Source: a virus
Direction: 5' to 3' (one strand)
Virus record (IMG/VR): IMGVR_UViG_3300043099_000259
Location: 1 to 35,939 of that record
Length of the DNA: 35,939 bases
Shown here: piece by piece, positions 885 through 30,471 of the stretch
Numbering within the stretch: the first letter of the stretch is position 1
Layout of the letters: each line of letters starts with the position of its first letter
The notes under the pieces: model-generated
What the model saw: the letters and a program-made list of their open reading frames with translations, nothing else
Told to the model about the DNA's origin: nothing
Database searches by the model: none
Translations under genes and position numbers: made by a program

Positions 885-3660
885 GATTATCTATGAAGCC
901 GAGGCAACGAGCCTGAAGGCGGTTGTAAACGAAGTTAACAAAGTCAATAGCGATGTAGTTGAATCAGCTAAACAGACTTCAACAAAGTTTGCTAATGAGT
1001 TTAAGAATGCATCAAAGGAGGCTGCGAACGCATTTGCAAATGGCCAGCTAAATGGGGCTATTAAAAATCTTAACACACAGGTTGCGAGTCTTACAACTGG
1101 TCTAAAGCTAAATACTGATGCATTCAAAAAATTTGATACTGAAGCGCAAAAGACAAATAAGATATTAGTTCAATCGGCTCAAGACGTTGCAAAGTACGAA
1201 GATAGGTTACGCGAATTGTCGGTTGCAGGTCAAAGGGCAACGCAAGAGTTTGAAGATATAGCGAAAGCGGTCGGCGAATACAAGTCGGCTATTATTGCCG
1301 CCGATAGGGCTGTTGATTTGTACTCTAAGTCAACCGATGCCGCAACGGGTCGAATAGGTGAACTTGAAGATAAGTTATACGATTTAGCTTTAGCAGGGAA
1401 ATCCAATACACAAGAATTTCAAGACTTGGTTCGCGAGGTTGCTAACGTTAAACGTGCGATAGTTGAAACCGATAAGCAAGTCGATTCATTCGTTGAACGC
1501 TCGAGGGGCTTTGGTACGGTAGTACAAAACATTGAATTAGTCGGGAACGCATTTCAAGTAGTCGAAGGTGCGGCGGCATTGTTCGGAGATGAAAACGAGG
1601 AACTTCAAAAGACTCTCGTTAAGTTGCAAGCGATTACTGCGATTACCTCGGGTATTGAGCAAGCGCGTTTAATATTAATCGAGCAAAGTGCTAAAAAGAC
1701 TGGCATTGCAGCCGTAGCTGAAAGGGCTTATGGGTTAGCAGTTGGTACATCCACAGGCGCATTGAAAGCATTTAGGATTGCACTTGCTGCCACTGGTGTA
1801 GGATTGATTATTGTTGCCATTGGCGCTTTGATTGCAAACTTTGACAAGCTTAAGGATGCAATATTCGGAACAAGCGATACAACACGCGCATTAAAGGCTA
1901 CCCTCGAAGGGGTTCGAACTGCACAGGCTGGAGCCATAGAGCAAACATCGAAAGTGGGCACTGCATTTGAGTTAGCACGTAAAGGGGTAATCTCAAAAGA
2001 CGAAGCGTTGTTAACGTACAACGAAACGCTCGGCGATAGTTTTGGGAAAACAAATGACCTCAATGTAGCCGAGGCGAATTACGTTAAAAAGAAAGAAGCA
2101 TTCATTCAGGCCACAGCTGCAAGGGCGCAGGCTCAAGCGTTGCTCGCTCAATCGGCGGCATTAGCAGCCGAGGCGGCAACTGTTACCGGAGAACAGGCTA
2201 CTAACTTTGGTGAAAAAATACAGACATTCATTGGCGATGCATTTGGTGTGTTTAATAAATTAATTGGCAATACAGCTGCTGTAACTGCTGCATCATTAAA
2301 AGCAAATACATTAATCGTTGAGCAAAATGCAAAGGAAAGAGTTCAATCTGAAAAGACCGCACAGGCTGAAATACTTACCAACTTAGCCACCTCTAAATTA
2401 GCAGAGGCAGAAGTAATTGAAAACGGAGCTGGGATTGCTTCAGAGGTTGAGCAGAAAGTAAATGAGAAGAGAGCGGAACAAGCAAAAGCATTTGAAGAAT
2501 TGCTCAAAGAAATTAAAAAGGCAAGCAATGAATCAATAGCAAAACTTGAAGAGCAAAATGCAGAGTTTAGCAAAAACAAAAGACTTTCAATTGAAGAGGC
2601 ATATCAAAAAGAATTAGAGCGACTTGCCGAACAAAAGAAAAAACGTGATGAAAAAAACGCATTAGCTTTTGAAGGATTATCTGAGCAGCTATTTGATGGT
2701 CAAATAAACAGGCTTAGAAGATTGGAAGCAGAAGAAGGTAGTACATCAGAACGCCGCATCCAGCTTATTGAGTTAGAATCACAAAAACAGATTGCAGCTA
2801 TTAGGCTAAGTGTTGATGACAAGGCGAAAGCAGATAATCAAATACTGCGCATTGAAGCAGAAACACAGCAAGCCATTCGCGATGAGCGTAAGAAGTCACG
2901 CGATGAAGCAATCGATCAAGCGTTGGAGATTGCAAGTGCTTCGGCTGATGCGCTTGGTAGTATCTTAAAGTTTCAAAGCCAGCTAACGGAGAACAGAATT
3001 GCTGAGATACAAAGCAGCAGTGAAAAGGAACTCGAAGCGATTAACAGCTCACTCGAAAGCGAAGTAGTTAAGGCCAACAAACGCGAGGCATTGGAGAAGC
3101 GCACACAATCGAAGATAGCAGCTGAAAAGCAAAAGCAGGCGCGGCAAGAAAAGGCATTGAATATCTTCCGAGCAACCATTGACACGGCTGCATCAATTGT
3201 CAAGACAGGGGCGCAGCTCGGTTATCCCGCCGCGCTTCCATTCCAAATCCTTGCCGGTATTGTTGGAGCTGCTAACATCGCAGCAATCGCAGCACAGCCA
3301 TTGCCTAAGTTCAAGAAGGGTGGTATGGTAGGCGGGCGCAGCCACGAAGCGGGTGGCACATTGATTGAAGCAGAGCGTGGCGAGTACGTTGTGAATAAGA
3401 ACTCAGTGATGCGCAACCGCCGCGAACTGGATGCAATCAACACATCGAGCGCGGCATTCAAGCGGTTAATCGATGAGCGTTACGTGCGCCCTGCCATACT
3501 TAGCTATGCGATGAATAACAAGCGCGACGGCATAACGGTTAACGCTTCGCTGAATAGCAAGTCGATGGAGAAAGAGCTCAAGGGATTGCGAAAGGACATG
3601 CGCAATAAGAACACCATTGTAAACATTAACGGAGGGGATTCTCGGTACTCATGGCAGTAG
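865..3660 (+). CDS. Tail tape measure protein (931 aa)
   Basis: The longest protein in the window. It is Ala/Lys/Glu/Gln-rich with long heptad-like helices, one hydrophobic stretch near residues 304-325 (ATGVGLIIVAIGALIANF) and a second weakly hydrophobic Ala-rich region near 790-815. The C-terminal segment near residues 819-852 (GGMVGGRSHEAGGTLIEAE) is a glycine-rich motif common at the ends of siphophage tape measures. Such proteins set tail length and line the tube lumen until DNA ejection. At about 0.15 nm per helical residue, 931 residues suggest a tail near 140 nm, which is an estimate. The gene overlaps the preceding small ORF by 20 bases and the next gene by 10. Confidence 0.9.
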   Translation: MAAAKVEIIYEAEATSLKAVVNEVNKVNSDVVESAKQTSTKFANEFKNASKEAANAFANGQLNGAIKNLNTQVASLTTGLKLNTDAFKKFDTEAQKTNKILVQSAQDVAKYEDRLRELSVAGQRATQEFEDIAKAVGEYKSAIIAADRAVDLYSKSTDAATGRIGELEDKLYDLALAGKSNTQEFQDLVREVANVKRAIVETDKQVDSFVERSRGFGTVVQNIELVGNAFQVVEGAAALFGDENEELQKTLVKLQAITAITSGIEQARLILIEQSAKKTGIAAVAERAYGLAVGTSTGALKAFRIALAATGVGLIIVAIGALIANFDKLKDAIFGTSDTTRALKATLEGVRTAQAGAIEQTSKVGTAFELARKGVISKDEALLTYNETLGDSFGKTNDLNVAEANYVKKKEAFIQATAARAQAQALLAQSAALAAEAATVTGEQATNFGEKIQTFIGDAFGVFNKLIGNTAAVTAASLKANTLIVEQNAKERVQSEKTAQAEILTNLATSKLAEAEVIENGAGIASEVEQKVNEKRAEQAKAFEELLKEIKKASNESIAKLEEQNAEFSKNKRLSIEEAYQKELERLAEQKKKRDEKNALAFEGLSEQLFDGQINRLRRLEAEEGSTSERRIQLIELESQKQIAAIRLSVDDKAKADNQILRIEAETQQAIRDERKKSRDEAIDQALEIASASADALGSILKFQSQLTENRIAEIQSSSEKELEAINSSLESEVVKANKREALEKRTQSKIAAEKQKQARQEKALNIFRATIDTAASIVKTGAQLGYPAALPFQILAGIVGAANIAAIAAQPLPKFKKGGMVGGRSHEAGGTLIEAERGEYVVNKNSVMRNRRELDAINTSSAAFKRLIDERYVRPAILSYAMNNKRDGITVNASLNSKSMEKELKGLRKDMRNKNTIVNINGGDSRYSWQ

Positions 3661-26698: not shown

Positions 26699-27378
26699 AA
26701 AATAACAACATACGAATATTAGTTGCTTGTGAGGAAAGCGACGAAGTAAGGGGGAGGCTTGAAAAAATGGGTTTTGATGCTTGGAGTTGCGATTTACAAG
26801 AAAATAGAAACCCAAACGCAAAGCATTACAAAGGTGATATTTTTGACATTATAAATAACGATTGGCATGCTATGATAGCTTTTCCACCTTGTACTCATTT
26901 AGCTGTGAGTGGTGCTGCATGGTTTGAACAAAAGCGAAAAGATGGAAGACAGCAACAAGGGGTTGACTTTTTTTTGGAAATAGCAAAAGCCAAAATAAAA
27001 CATATTGCAATAGAAAATCCGGTTGGAATAATGAGTAAAATTTATATGCCACCAACACAAGTAATACAACCTTATTATTTTGGCGATAAGGCACAAAAAA
27101 CAACTTGCCTATGGTTGAAAAACTTGCCACCATTATACCATAATGCAGCACCAAATTTATTTGATGACGTTGTAACACATACTGACAAAGGCGAGTTTTT
27201 TGAATGGATAGATAGCAAAACAGGTAAGAAAAAAAGACAACCATTGTGGTTTAAAGAAGCAAGGAGTTTAAAAGGCGATGAACGAAGCAAGGTAAGGTCA
27301 AAAACATTTCCGGGTATTGCACAAGCTATGTCAAGCCAATGGGGTCAATATTTAATACAGCAATATGAGAAAGGCTAA
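26695..27378 (+). CDS. DNA cytosine-C5 methyltransferase-like protein (227 aa)
   Basis: Motifs of the Dcm-like fold are seen: N-terminal RILVACEESDEVRG (SAM side), CDLQ at 32-35, the catalytic PPC loop in AFPPCTHLAVSGAAW (62-76, Cys66), and ENPVG at 107-111, equivalent to the ENV motif. It is short for a full cytosine methyltransferase and has only a brief target-recognition region, as in many small phage enzymes. It probably modifies phage DNA against restriction. The base composition is more A/T-rich than its neighbours (for example 21 G/C of 60 at 26941-27000 against 30 of 60 at 26221-26280), suggesting recent acquisition. Confidence 0.75.
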   Translation: MKNNNIRILVACEESDEVRGRLEKMGFDAWSCDLQENRNPNAKHYKGDIFDIINNDWHAMIAFPPCTHLAVSGAAWFEQKRKDGRQQQGVDFFLEIAKAKIKHIAIENPVGIMSKIYMPPTQVIQPYYFGDKAQKTTCLWLKNLPPLYHNAAPNLFDDVVTHTDKGEFFEWIDSKTGKKKRQPLWFKEARSLKGDERSKVRSKTFPGIAQAMSSQWGQYLIQQYEKG

Positions 27379-27748
27379 AGAATCAGATATCTACTTTGCA
27401 ATCGCGAAGTTCATGAAGCTAAAGCACCCGAGAGTACTATGGCGTTTTGACTTCAGCGCGGGAGTTAAGATGAGCATCGGGCAAGCTAAATCCCACAAGG
27501 GGCTCAACCCGCATCGCGGCTACCCTGACCTATTCATCTGCCAGCCATCGAACGGTTACGCCGGGCTATACATCGAAATCAAAAAAGAGGGCGAACGAAC
27601 TCAGCGCAAGAATGGAACCCTATACGCCGATCAGCACCTCGAAGAGCAACACGCAATGCTGAACCACCTCAACATGGTAGGATATAAGGCCGTGTTCGGC
27701 ATTGGGTTAATGGAGTGCATTGAAATAATTGAAGAGTATTTACGATAA
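27365..27748 (+). CDS. VRR-NUC domain nuclease (127 aa)
   Basis: A compact VRR-NUC protein: E7 at the start of the first helix, GYPDLFI with D55, GLYIEIKKEG with E71-x-K73, and a helix HLEEQHAMLNHL before a final strand YKAVFGIGL. These are the PD-(D/E)XK residues of the family, which cleaves branched or damaged DNA and often acts in phage recombination or Holliday junction processing. The G/C-richer DNA returns here after the methyltransferase. It overlaps the previous gene by 14 bases. Confidence 0.88.
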   Translation: MRKAKESDIYFAIAKFMKLKHPRVLWRFDFSAGVKMSIGQAKSHKGLNPHRGYPDLFICQPSNGYAGLYIEIKKEGERTQRKNGTLYADQHLEEQHAMLNHLNMVGYKAVFGIGLMECIEIIEEYLR

Positions 27749-28027: not shown

Positions 28028-28035
28028 TATATTTG
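28028..28035 (+). promoter_or_regulatory. Promoter for the attenuator RNA / replication gene (TATATTTG)
   Basis: An exact TAnnTTTG match ten bases after the lipoprotein stop codon. No TTG at the ideal -33 distance. Transcription from here would begin just at the 5' hairpin of the structured leader. Confidence 0.65.
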
Positions 28036-28155
28036 AGCATTCAGAGGTCGAAGCCTGAATGATGTTTCAAAAATCTTGAAGCCCTTTGGGGGCTGCGAGG
28101 CAAGGGTAAAACCGAGCCGCTTCGACCGCAGCCATCAAAGGGCATTTTTTTTACA
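28036..28155 (+). ncRNA. Structured leader RNA with pseudoknot and attenuator
   Basis: Hairpin H1 pairs CATTCAG (28038-28044) with CTGAATG (28055-28061). Its 10-base loop contains GGTCGAAGC (28046-28054), which is a perfect 9-base complement of GCTTCGACC (28119-28127). A second domain pairs GCCCTTTG (28081-28088) with CAAAGGGC (28136-28143), then GGCTGCG (28091-28097) with CGCAGCC (28127-28133), with a small GGC/GCC hairpin inside. The loop pairing ends where the inner stem begins (28127), so the folds can compete. The outer stem is followed by A and eight T bases, an intrinsic terminator ending three bases before ATG28156. I read it as a riboswitch-like or protein-controlled attenuator, or a small RNA with read-through. 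No known family recognised. Confidence 0.7.
28081..28152 (+). terminator. Intrinsic terminator in the leader (attenuator)
   Basis: An 8-bp perfect stem (28081-28088 with 28136-28143) is extended by a 7-bp stem (28091-28097 with 28127-28133) and followed by A plus T8 (28145-28152). Because a promoter lies upstream and a start codon immediately follows, it controls the next gene rather than ending the previous one. Its inner stem competes with the 9-bp loop pairing. Confidence 0.8.
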
Positions 28156-28746
28156 ATGGATAAGCGAGATACCTGCATATTTTACCGATCAATGTATGAG
28201 GCAATGCAAGAGCTGCCTGAAGCCGCAAGGCTTGAGTTATACGATGCAATTTTTCTTTATTCGCTCGACTTCAAACAGACTGAATTAACCGGACTCGCGA
28301 AGGCATTATTCATTGCTTTTGAGCCTGTGTTAACAAAGGGCAACACTAACTACATAAACGGAAGCAAACCGAAATCGAAGCGAATCGGAAGCGAATCGGA
28401 AGCGAAACCGAAGCGAATTGAAAGCGAAACGGAAGCCTATAAGGATAAGGATAAGGATAAAGAGAAGGATAAGGATAAAAATAAAGATAACTTTAAGAAG
28501 TGGAGCGAGCAAGATTTGATTGAATCAATGACTCCATACAAGGATAGATATCCTAAGGAACTCCTAAATGCTTTCTTTAACTATTGGACTGAGCCGCTTG
28601 CCAATGGAAAGATACGCTTAACCTCTCAAGATGCGTGGGATACTGGGCGCAGATTGGTTACTTGGAATAAACGCGATAAGGATAAACAACCAGCGAACGC
28701 AGCACCAACAAAGACACGCGCCTCGATGGGCGTTAAAATGGAATAA
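28156..28746 (+). CDS. DUF6291-like replication-region protein with low-complexity linker (196 aa)
   Basis: The first 70 residues (KRDTCIFYRSMYEAMQELPE, then YDAIFLYSLDFKQTE) match the DUF6291-type domain common in Bacteroidota phages near DnaB. A low-complexity linker follows, KPKSKRIGSESEAKPKR and then KDKDKDKEKDKDKNKD, made by 11-bp and 6-bp DNA repeats. The C-terminal 80 residues resemble a DNA- or helicase-binding domain (KWSEQDLIESMTPYKD; WDTGRRLVTWNKRDKD). Placement before DnaB suggests replication initiation or helicase loading. Transcription is probably regulated by the attenuator directly upstream. Confidence 0.65.
   Translation: MDKRDTCIFYRSMYEAMQELPEAARLELYDAIFLYSLDFKQTELTGLAKALFIAFEPVLTKGNTNYINGSKPKSKRIGSESEAKPKRIESETEAYKDKDKDKEKDKDKNKDNFKKWSEQDLIESMTPYKDRYPKELLNAFFNYWTEPLANGKIRLTSQDAWDTGRRLVTWNKRDKDKQPANAAPTKTRASMGVKME
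28377..28436 (+). repeat. 11-bp tandem repeat in the replication gene linker
   Basis: About five and a half copies of GAAGCGAATCG: units at 28377, 28388, 28399, 28410 and 28421, then a partial one to 28436. Because 11 is not a multiple of 3, gain or loss of one unit shifts the reading frame. The first two units are identical. Confidence 0.8.
28441..28490 (+). repeat. 6-bp tandem repeat coding for Lys-Asp
   Basis: Successive near copies of AAGGAT encode the KDKDKD tract. The unit is in frame, so copy number changes lengthen or shorten the charged linker without a frameshift. Confidence 0.75.
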
Positions 28747-28774: not shown

Positions 28775-28804
28775 TTGCAAATTCAAAATAAGGTTTTATA
28801 TTTG
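28775..28804 (+). promoter_or_regulatory. Early promoter B (TTG-19-TATATTTG)
   Basis: TTG at 28775-28777 and TATATTTG at 28797-28804 have a 19-base spacer, the same spacing as promoter A at 23066-23095. It precedes ATG28833 by 28 bases and drives the small protein and DnaB genes. Confidence 0.75.
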
Positions 28805-29064: not shown

Positions 29065-30471
29065 ATGAAACCAATTCCAATGCACTACGTGCCTAAAATC
29101 GAACAGGCTCTTATGTTTCTTTGCCTTAACGGCGATGAGAACTATAAGGAAATAGCGCCGCAGCTTATCGATGAACACTTCTCAGACGATACAGCACTCA
29201 AAGCCTTTAAGGTCATAAACGCGATTATGAAGGACGGCAAGCAGCCGACATTCGTTACCTTCGGAAAATACGCATTAACCGAAAAAACACTCACGGCTAA
29301 TGAGATTGCCAGCGTTACCCAGTGGGGCAATGAGCTGAGTTACTCAGAGCCGATCAATGAGTACATCAGCATTCTCAAAGATGAACACATCAAACGCAAT
29401 ATAAACCACATCCTAACCGAAGAGGCACTCGGACTCGGCAAGCTAAAGAGCGGCGGTGAAACAGCCGTTAACATCATCAAGCGCCTTAACACCCTGATTG
29501 AGAATGGCAGCCCTACCGATAACATCATTACAACCCTACAGCTAACGCACGAAGAGCGGCAAGCATACTACCGCCGCGCTGCATTGCATCAAAGCGGTAA
29601 GACAAGCGGGCTCAATACCGGCATCGCAGCACTTAACCGATTCACCGGAGGCTTCCATCCCGAGCTTATAATCTTAGCAGGCAGGCCATCGATGGGTAAG
29701 ACTGCCCTCGCACTATACCACGCCTGCCAGTTCAATGAGCCGGGCATCTACTTCAACCTGGAGATGAATCAAAGCCAGCTCTGCCAGCGGTTAATACTTC
29801 AGCACGCTAACGATGCGATTAATAGCGCACGCCTACGCGATGGGAACCTATCGCAGCCCGAGCTACACGCATTTGAAACCACGATCGGATTAGTTGAGAA
29901 GCTACCCATCACAATCTACGATAAGCCTCGATGCGGTGTGCATGAGGCAATACGCATAATGCGGCGCGAGGCACGTAAGAATAATTGCAAGTGGGCAATC
30001 ATTGACTATCTTCAGCTTATGACGATAGAGGGCTTCAGAGGCGGTAATCGCGAGGCTGAGGTCGCAGAGATAAGCCGCACGTTGAAAGCCGCACAAAAAG
30101 AGTTAAACATTCCAATAATCGCACTTGCTCAGTTAAGCAGGCAAGTCGAGCAACGTGCCGATAAGCGACCTATACTCTCAGACCTTCGCGAATCGGGCAG
30201 CATTGAACAAGATGCCGACACGGTTATGTTCGTCTATCGACCTGAATACTACGGATTGAATGATGAAGCTGGCAATCCTTATAGCTCCGATGTATTTTAC
30301 CTATTCGAAAAGCATCGGCAAGGTTCAACGGGTGAGGTACGCTTTAAGCATAACAGCACGCTCACGAGCTTTCACGATACCGGCTCGAGTGGTGGCAGTA
30401 CCTACCTTCCAATTGAGGTCGAGCCGAAGGCAATGCAGCCGAATGAAAGTTTTGACATAAGCCCCTTCTAA
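29065..30471 (+). CDS. dnaB: Replicative DNA helicase, DnaB-like (468 aa)
   Basis: A small N-terminal domain (residues 1-150) and linker are followed by a RecA-type motor: Walker A GRPSMGKT at 206-213, Walker B AIIDYLQL at 311-318, the switch segment ALAQLSRQVEQR at 353-364 and RPILSDLRESGSIEQDAD at 368-385. These are diagnostic of hexameric DnaB-family helicases that unwind DNA 5'-3' at the fork. No primase domain is fused, so the phage probably uses host primase. It begins after the small hairpin at 29034 and is TAATG-coupled to the next gene. Confidence 0.95.
   Translation: MKPIPMHYVPKIEQALMFLCLNGDENYKEIAPQLIDEHFSDDTALKAFKVINAIMKDGKQPTFVTFGKYALTEKTLTANEIASVTQWGNELSYSEPINEYISILKDEHIKRNINHILTEEALGLGKLKSGGETAVNIIKRLNTLIENGSPTDNIITTLQLTHEERQAYYRRAALHQSGKTSGLNTGIAALNRFTGGFHPELIILAGRPSMGKTALALYHACQFNEPGIYFNLEMNQSQLCQRLILQHANDAINSARLRDGNLSQPELHAFETTIGLVEKLPITIYDKPRCGVHEAIRIMRREARKNNCKWAIIDYLQLMTIEGFRGGNREAEVAEISRTLKAAQKELNIPIIALAQLSRQVEQRADKRPILSDLRESGSIEQDADTVMFVYRPEYYGLNDEAGNPYSSDVFYLFEKHRQGSTGEVRFKHNSTLTSFHDTGSSGGSTYLPIEVEPKAMQPNESFDISPF

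Follow-up and report, generated by a model that had tools for sequence, protein, structure and literature searches.

A phage leader RNA with a fast-changing pseudoknot inside its intrinsic terminator, located before replication genes

Introduction

What is a strongly folded RNA doing in the short gap before the replication genes of a tailed phage? The DNA that we analyzed, referred to here as the window, comprises a virus record of 35,939 bases whose genes, with few exceptions on the + strand, are those of a tailed phage (tape measure, portal, endolysin, exonucleases, methyltransferases, resolvase-like protein, DUF6291, DnaB and terminase); no integrase was seen among the window proteins scanned. 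A preliminary description had proposed that this gap encodes a leader RNA with its own promoter, in which a pseudoknot between a hairpin loop and a downstream segment competes with an intrinsic terminator, or else a terminated small RNA. We compared the leader with relatives from uncultivated and cultured phages and asked which parts of this proposal hold and what the leader is likely to do.

Results

The features on which the proposal was built, namely a promoter box, complementarities of 7, 8 and 9 bp, a run of eight T's and an ATG at 28156, are all present in the window (Table 1). The RNA from 28036 to 28155 has a predicted folding energy of -45.3 kcal/mol (z -3.2), better than 200 of 200 dinucleotide shuffles. 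In the minimum-energy fold, the 3' arm stays unpaired inside the terminator. A28098, between P3 and P4, is invariant in the alignment, and the A-rich linker J1/2 may lie in the groove of the pseudoknot helix.

Table 1. Features of the leader and neighboring genes (window coordinates)
Feature	Coordinates	Strand	Remarks
Promoter box, Bacteroidota-type -7 element TATATTTG	28028-28035	+	TAnnTTT[GA] common to 93/94 relatives
P1, 5' hairpin	28038-28061	+	28038-28044 with 28055-28061, 7 bp; loop 28045-28054
Pseudoknot 5' arm GTCGAAGC	28047-28054	+	in P1 loop; 8 bp with 28119-28126
J1/2, A-rich linker	28062-28080	+	conserved A's in the 53-sequence alignment A1
Terminator hairpin (P2/P3/P4)	28081-28143	+	97-99% of cells paired
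P2	28081-28088/28136-28143	+	8 bp
P3	28091-28097/28127-28133	+	7 bp
P4	28099-28101/28116-28118	+	inside terminator hairpin
Pseudoknot 3' arm GCTTCGAC	28119-28126	+	no spacer to flanking P4 and P3 strands
U-tract of intrinsic terminator (T8)	28145-28152	+	T-rich tail in 94/94 relatives
Holliday-junction-resolvase-like gene	27365-27748	+	phrog_5702, E 1.5e-9
DUF6291 gene, first after leader	28156-28746	+	PF19808, E 4.5e-11
11-bp iterons, then 6-bp AT-rich repeats	28373-28436, then 28439-28490	+	tandem repeats inside DUF6291 gene
DnaB-type replicative helicase	29065-30471	+	PF03796, E 1.2e-78

Relatives were obtained in two ways. A protein search with the DUF6291 gene, free of any RNA assumption, gave 29 loci, and the leader was found in those that extend far enough upstream; a DNA pattern search gave many further elements. 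We aligned 53 distinct sequences (A1), built from them a covariance model that omits the pseudoknot (R1), and used it to collect and align 94 elements from uncultivated phages (A2). Since R1 lacks the pseudoknot, the model does not force the arms in A2 to be complementary. The search pattern fixed ACC before GCAGC, such that two pseudoknot pairs are invariant partly by construction in the pattern-derived set; the same two pairs are invariant in the protein-derived set too. Other searches were set aside: minus-strand matches of R1 are the mirror of the same hairpin, a palindromic pattern scan gave mostly chance matches, a P2/P3 pattern run over genome contigs was swamped by GC-rich chance matches, and scans with an arm sequence and free P3 returned chance matches for one allele and a single P3-variant clade for another. 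We found no relatives by blastn in cultured phages and plasmids and no copies with the covariance model in 395 Bacteroidota genomes; the relatives in cultured phages described below came to light only through their architecture.

Covariation was strong in all helices, including the pseudoknot. The preliminary proposal is supported as far as it describes a leader RNA of a phage that combines a dedicated promoter, a pseudoknot from a loop to a downstream strand, and an intrinsic terminator. In the alignment of 53 distinct relatives, 97.6% of cells are paired, with two-sided changes in 22 of 33 pairs, compared to a shuffle mean of 11.7; the covariation score was 0.43 (0.16 in shuffles) and was lost when partners were slid by 1-3 columns. 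Two-sided changes were seen in 6/7 pairs of P1 (94.6% of cells paired) and in 9/15 and 2/3 pairs of the terminator hairpin, while the pseudoknot was paired in 100% of cells, with 5/8 pairs covarying and at most 4 pair types at any position. In 93 A2 elements, the pseudoknot was Watson-Crick in 744/744 cells with zero G-U, compared to 75 G-U cells in P1, 57 in P2, 43 in P3 and 8 in P4. An apparent mismatch in one element (L208) is an alignment shift, as its arms are complementary in its A1 row.

The pseudoknot had been described as a 9-bp pairing, 28046-28054 with 28119-28127, that shares a base with the terminator. All nine pairs can be drawn in the window sequence itself, and eight of them are conserved, whereas the ninth, G28046-C28127, is not: column 28046 holds 38 G, 9 A and 6 C in the 53 relatives, facing an invariant C28127. 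The G28097-C28127 pair of terminator helix P3 is invariant across the same relatives. Thus, C28127 belongs to the terminator, and the conserved pseudoknot consists of 8 bp and has no base in common with it. The idea that pseudoknot and terminator exclude one another is accordingly unsupported; the 8-bp pseudoknot is compatible with P1, P2, P3 and P4 in a single fold, and in a non-exhaustive look we noticed no other covarying alternative that could serve as a mutually exclusive antiterminator fold.

We examined how the leader is placed relative to promoter, terminator and genes. In 93 of the 94 relatives the promoter motif precedes P1 by 2-5 nt, compared to a background of 2.6% of random 24-nt windows, and the upstream gene ends a few to ~40 nt before P1. 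A T-rich tail (5 or more T's among 8 bases) follows the terminator in every relative, and a start codon occurs 8-25 nt after P2 in 94/94, even though the first genes fall into 18 unrelated clusters. The arrangement that characterizes an intrinsic-terminator attenuator (a promoter, a terminator hairpin with a U-tract, and a gene directly downstream) was thus found at the leader. On the opposite strand, 16 TAnnTTTG motifs were counted in 94 antisense windows, with no conserved antisense promoter. A second TATATTTG box was seen at window position 28797-28804, right after the DUF6291 gene and before a small ORF and DnaB.

The first gene had been called DUF6291-like and linked to replication. The PF19808 match bears out the family, and the gene probably encodes a replication initiator. 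The tandem repeats inside it likely mark the phage replication origin, since divergent relatives have the same layout of iterons followed by AT-rich repeats, although their units differ in sequence. DnaB lies downstream of the leader in 64/64 loci and the resolvase-like gene upstream in 46/46 loci where a homologue was found, which puts the leader between recombination genes and the replication module; in a second phage group its neighbors on the two sides are a YqaJ recombinase and a primase/VapE-type helicase. Exactly one element was present in 34/35 phage records (forward reading, mirror matches set aside). Two elements with different arm types (3491-3619 and 38207-38330) were seen in a 52-kb record (IMGVR_UViG_3300044695_002763, our G001), which may be an assembly artifact that fuses two phages, or may truly have two leaders.

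The pseudoknot evolves unlike the helices around it, changing ~3.5-fold faster per base pair. Between elements whose RNA backbone differs by 3-6%, per-base divergence was 0.19 in the pseudoknot, compared to 0.07 in P1, 0.04 in P2 and 0 in P3; above ~9% backbone divergence, pseudoknot divergence became independent of the backbone and the chance that two elements share an arm type approached the random value of 0.13. In 32 disjoint pairs at no more than 10% divergence, 22 of 41 changed base pairs fell in the 8-bp pseudoknot (with 25 bp elsewhere), for which the binomial p of 5e-5 is optimistic, as changes come in twos. The pseudoknot had changed in 10 of these 32 pairs, and in the closest pairs never by one base pair alone. 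About 15 arm types exist, four of them common; they are exchanged independently of the backbone, and alleles recur on divergent backbones. This compensated turnover would be most easily understood if the arms meet a partner that differs among phages, although it may also reflect structural drift among discrete allowed types.

We looked for such a partner in the phages' own sequence and found no enrichment of second sites matching the arms (6 and 7, compared to 4.5 and 5.3 expected). Likewise, in the window family the longest arm copy near the next start codon was 5.30 nt, compared to 5.15 nt in the control. The idea that phages from the same metagenome avoid the same allele was unsupported, as 6/19 pairs share one, compared to 0.13 expected at random.

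Leaders of the same architecture also occur in cultured phages. We scanned for architecture only (promoter, hairpin, and a loop complement inside a terminator), with a sensitivity of 89/94 and 0.69 matches per Mb of shuffled sequence. Among 42 distant DUF6291 loci the scanner returned 5 matches, each of them 115-379 nt upstream of the gene, with no match at other positions. One of them is in Flavobacterium phage 11b, where R1 scores only 14.4 bits, yet exactly in the gap before the DUF6291 region; this leader has TATATTTG, a P1 of GTTATTA/TAATAAC and a loop that pairs over 8 bp (CGGGCAGG/CCTGCCCG), together with a terminator and an ATG. Matches were also found in phages tooticki6-1, lillamy9-6, elemoA and elemoF, in mumin9-1 before a non-homologous replication module, and in the temperate phage laban6-1 before another gene, and three phages of one host strain (elemoA, elemoF and elemoA_13-1A, the last by eye) carry three different matched arms. 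Two further matches, on the minus strand of L414 and at CRP6 6206, were judged to be chance. The leaders of cultured phages could be homologous to the window family or alike in design only. With the exception of laban6-1, the phages of Flavobacterium LMO6/LMO9 have been described as virulent (PMC7077304), and this speaks against a role of the leader in lysogeny alone.

Several minor observations concern these phages. In L452 (~2620-2740) the arms are exchanged relative to tooticki6-1, with CGTCTCAC in the loop and GTGAGACG in the terminator instead of the reverse. In L495 (11666-11765) and L415 (1097-1196) (mumin9-1, tooticki6-1), a further leader with this architecture, but with the arm GTCGTCG, precedes a NUMOD4 endonuclease gene. 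In L449, L450, L451 and L489, the region upstream of the DUF6291 homologue holds leaders that likewise combine a promoter and a terminator but differ in their inner pairings, and the structured leaders of this gene may thus comprise more than one family.

Riemerella phages carry leaders of similar design, for which we make no claim of homology to the window family. Phages CRP6, PT03, CRP12, RAP44 and CRP34 have two leaders each, which precede a small ORF and an antirepressor (or KilAC-type) gene and have an arm pairing of 15 bp. In 10/10 elements with five alleles, an exact copy of 12-13 nt of the 5' arm lies at the start codon of the following ORF, compared to only 4-8 nt in mismatched arm/start-codon combinations, such that three sites covary. 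The arm inside the terminator is thereby antisense to the translation start, and this third copy suggests antisense control like that by the C4 RNA of P1/P7. Integrases are present in these carriers, and the leaders are likely a C4-like antisense immunity RNA in Bacteroidota phages. The two leaders of each genome are paralogous (for example L498 14863-15036 and 31496-31322; likewise in L500, L501, L502 and L503). A record labeled Shigella phage Henu10 (OQ791282.1, 8168-8330) holds a Riemerella leader with the coordinates and identity seen in Riemerella phage PT15, and is possibly mislabeled.

Discussion

We propose that the leader is a promoter-proximal attenuator that yields an RNA of ~110 nt and gates the replication genes by read-through, a reading to which we give a probability of roughly two in three from comparative sequence analysis. 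Transcription would start at the foot of P1, and in the nascent RNA P1, the pseudoknot and the terminator would fold together into one compact pseudoknotted structure. Most transcripts would stop at the U-tract, leaving a discrete RNA of roughly 110 nt. Since the ATG comes a few nucleotides after the U-tract, with no room for a promoter in between, the sequence implies that the first replication gene can be expressed only by read-through from this terminator, which would thus gate both the initiator, with its internal iteron origin, and DnaB. The anatomy, covariation, promoter, terminator, position and start-codon spacing described above all support this arrangement. Efficient termination and regulated read-through are predicted from it, and, with less confidence and by analogy with antisense leaders, we infer that the arms, which change fast but stay strictly matched, determine specificity for a partner RNA.

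We considered whether the leader could instead be a free-standing small RNA with trans targets among the RNAs or proteins of phage or host, its place before replication genes being incidental to compact genomes. This alternative, already raised in the preliminary description, agrees with the anatomy as well: promoter and terminator mark the exact ends of the fold, a very compact pseudoknot ties the 5' hairpin to the terminator, there is one copy per genome, and a stable trans-acting RNA with its terminator merely before a gene would look much the same. Nevertheless, it appears unlikely, in that a free RNA gene needs neither a start codon at so constrained a distance in all 94 relatives, before 18 unrelated gene clusters, nor a conserved place before replication modules, and the search of the phages' own genomes found no target for its arms.

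A metabolite or a phage or host protein might also bind the pseudoknotted fold and set read-through. The compact fold, the invariant A28098 and the conserved A-rich linker are what such a riboswitch or protein-binding attenuator could offer, and it sits where an operon leader should. However, a pseudoknot that outpaces its surrounding helices and comes in ~15 allele types swapped independently of the backbone is unlike a conserved ligand core, the regulated first genes are unrelated, and no Rfam riboswitch matched, so that we regard this reading as rather improbable. Transcription near the origin activates replication in lambda, and the leader could likewise provide a short transcript that activates or primes replication at the iteron origin ~220 nt downstream. 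The iterons and AT-rich repeats in the gene right after the leader and the conserved position agree with this. It is nonetheless very improbable given that the leader also precedes genes with no iterons in the next 1.5 kb (L182, L191, L235 and L258) and that in mumin9-1 a leader with this design stands before an endonuclease gene.

The preliminary description knew of no matching family, and we indeed found no match of the window leader to any Rfam 15 family at the gathering score; the best sub-threshold matches were chance, cultured relatives gave tRNA matches only, and our literature search found no published description of this family. Rfam holds a C4 family, and its C4 antisense RNA did not match the window or its relatives in these scans. 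We conclude that the leader is an RNA family absent from Rfam, which would work like known phage antisense and attenuator leaders and is a member of none. It resembles C4 RNA, which underlies P1/P7 heteroimmunity, in being a phage-operon leader in which short complementary segments set specificity (PMC12197685). In contrast to C4, the window family precedes replication genes, fuses its intrinsic terminator to the pseudoknot, occurs in phages described as virulent (PMC7077304), and has no arm copy at the start codon; arm-start complementarity was found only in the Riemerella leaders, which share with C4 both this antisense arm and the order of leader, small ORF and antirepressor.

Other likenesses are similarly partial. 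The CI RNA of satellite phage P4 is leader-encoded and controls replication genes via premature termination and complementary segments (PMC4825925), but P4 has two complementary sites (seqA and seqC) and processes a longer transcript, while the window leader has one pairing within a terminated hairpin. IsrK of Gifsy-1 likewise has a dual product, a terminated small RNA or a read-through mRNA (PMC4825925); its target operon is an antirepressor/antiterminator region rather than replication genes, and we claim no relation in sequence. In IncI, IncB and IncL/M plasmids, a leader loop of the replication gene forms a pseudoknot, and a few loop changes in these RNAs alter plasmid compatibility (PMC10724649). 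These plasmids use a separate countertranscript, RNAI, whereas the window family has no conserved antisense promoter and its pseudoknot sits in the terminator.

Little is known of RNA regulation in phages of the Bacteroidota, and the leader adds an Rfam-absent RNA family there, at the place of the switch that starts phage DNA replication. It shows the unusual pattern of a structural helix that evolves faster than its neighbors while staying perfectly paired. Tentatively, and with considerable doubt, we raise the further reading that these leaders are self-recognition elements, acting in trans on same-allele leaders or start sites of co-infecting or replicating phages, such that the arms define compatibility groups controlling replication and the leaders form a broad class in Bacteroidota phages. 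If so, they would be a lytic counterpart of plasmid incompatibility and P1/P7 heteroimmunity. Such an RNA identity system, with arms acting between molecules, could be tested with the cultured phages mumin9-1 and tooticki6-1, whose elements are nearly identical and differ by a compensated change of two base pairs in the pseudoknot and a few other bases.
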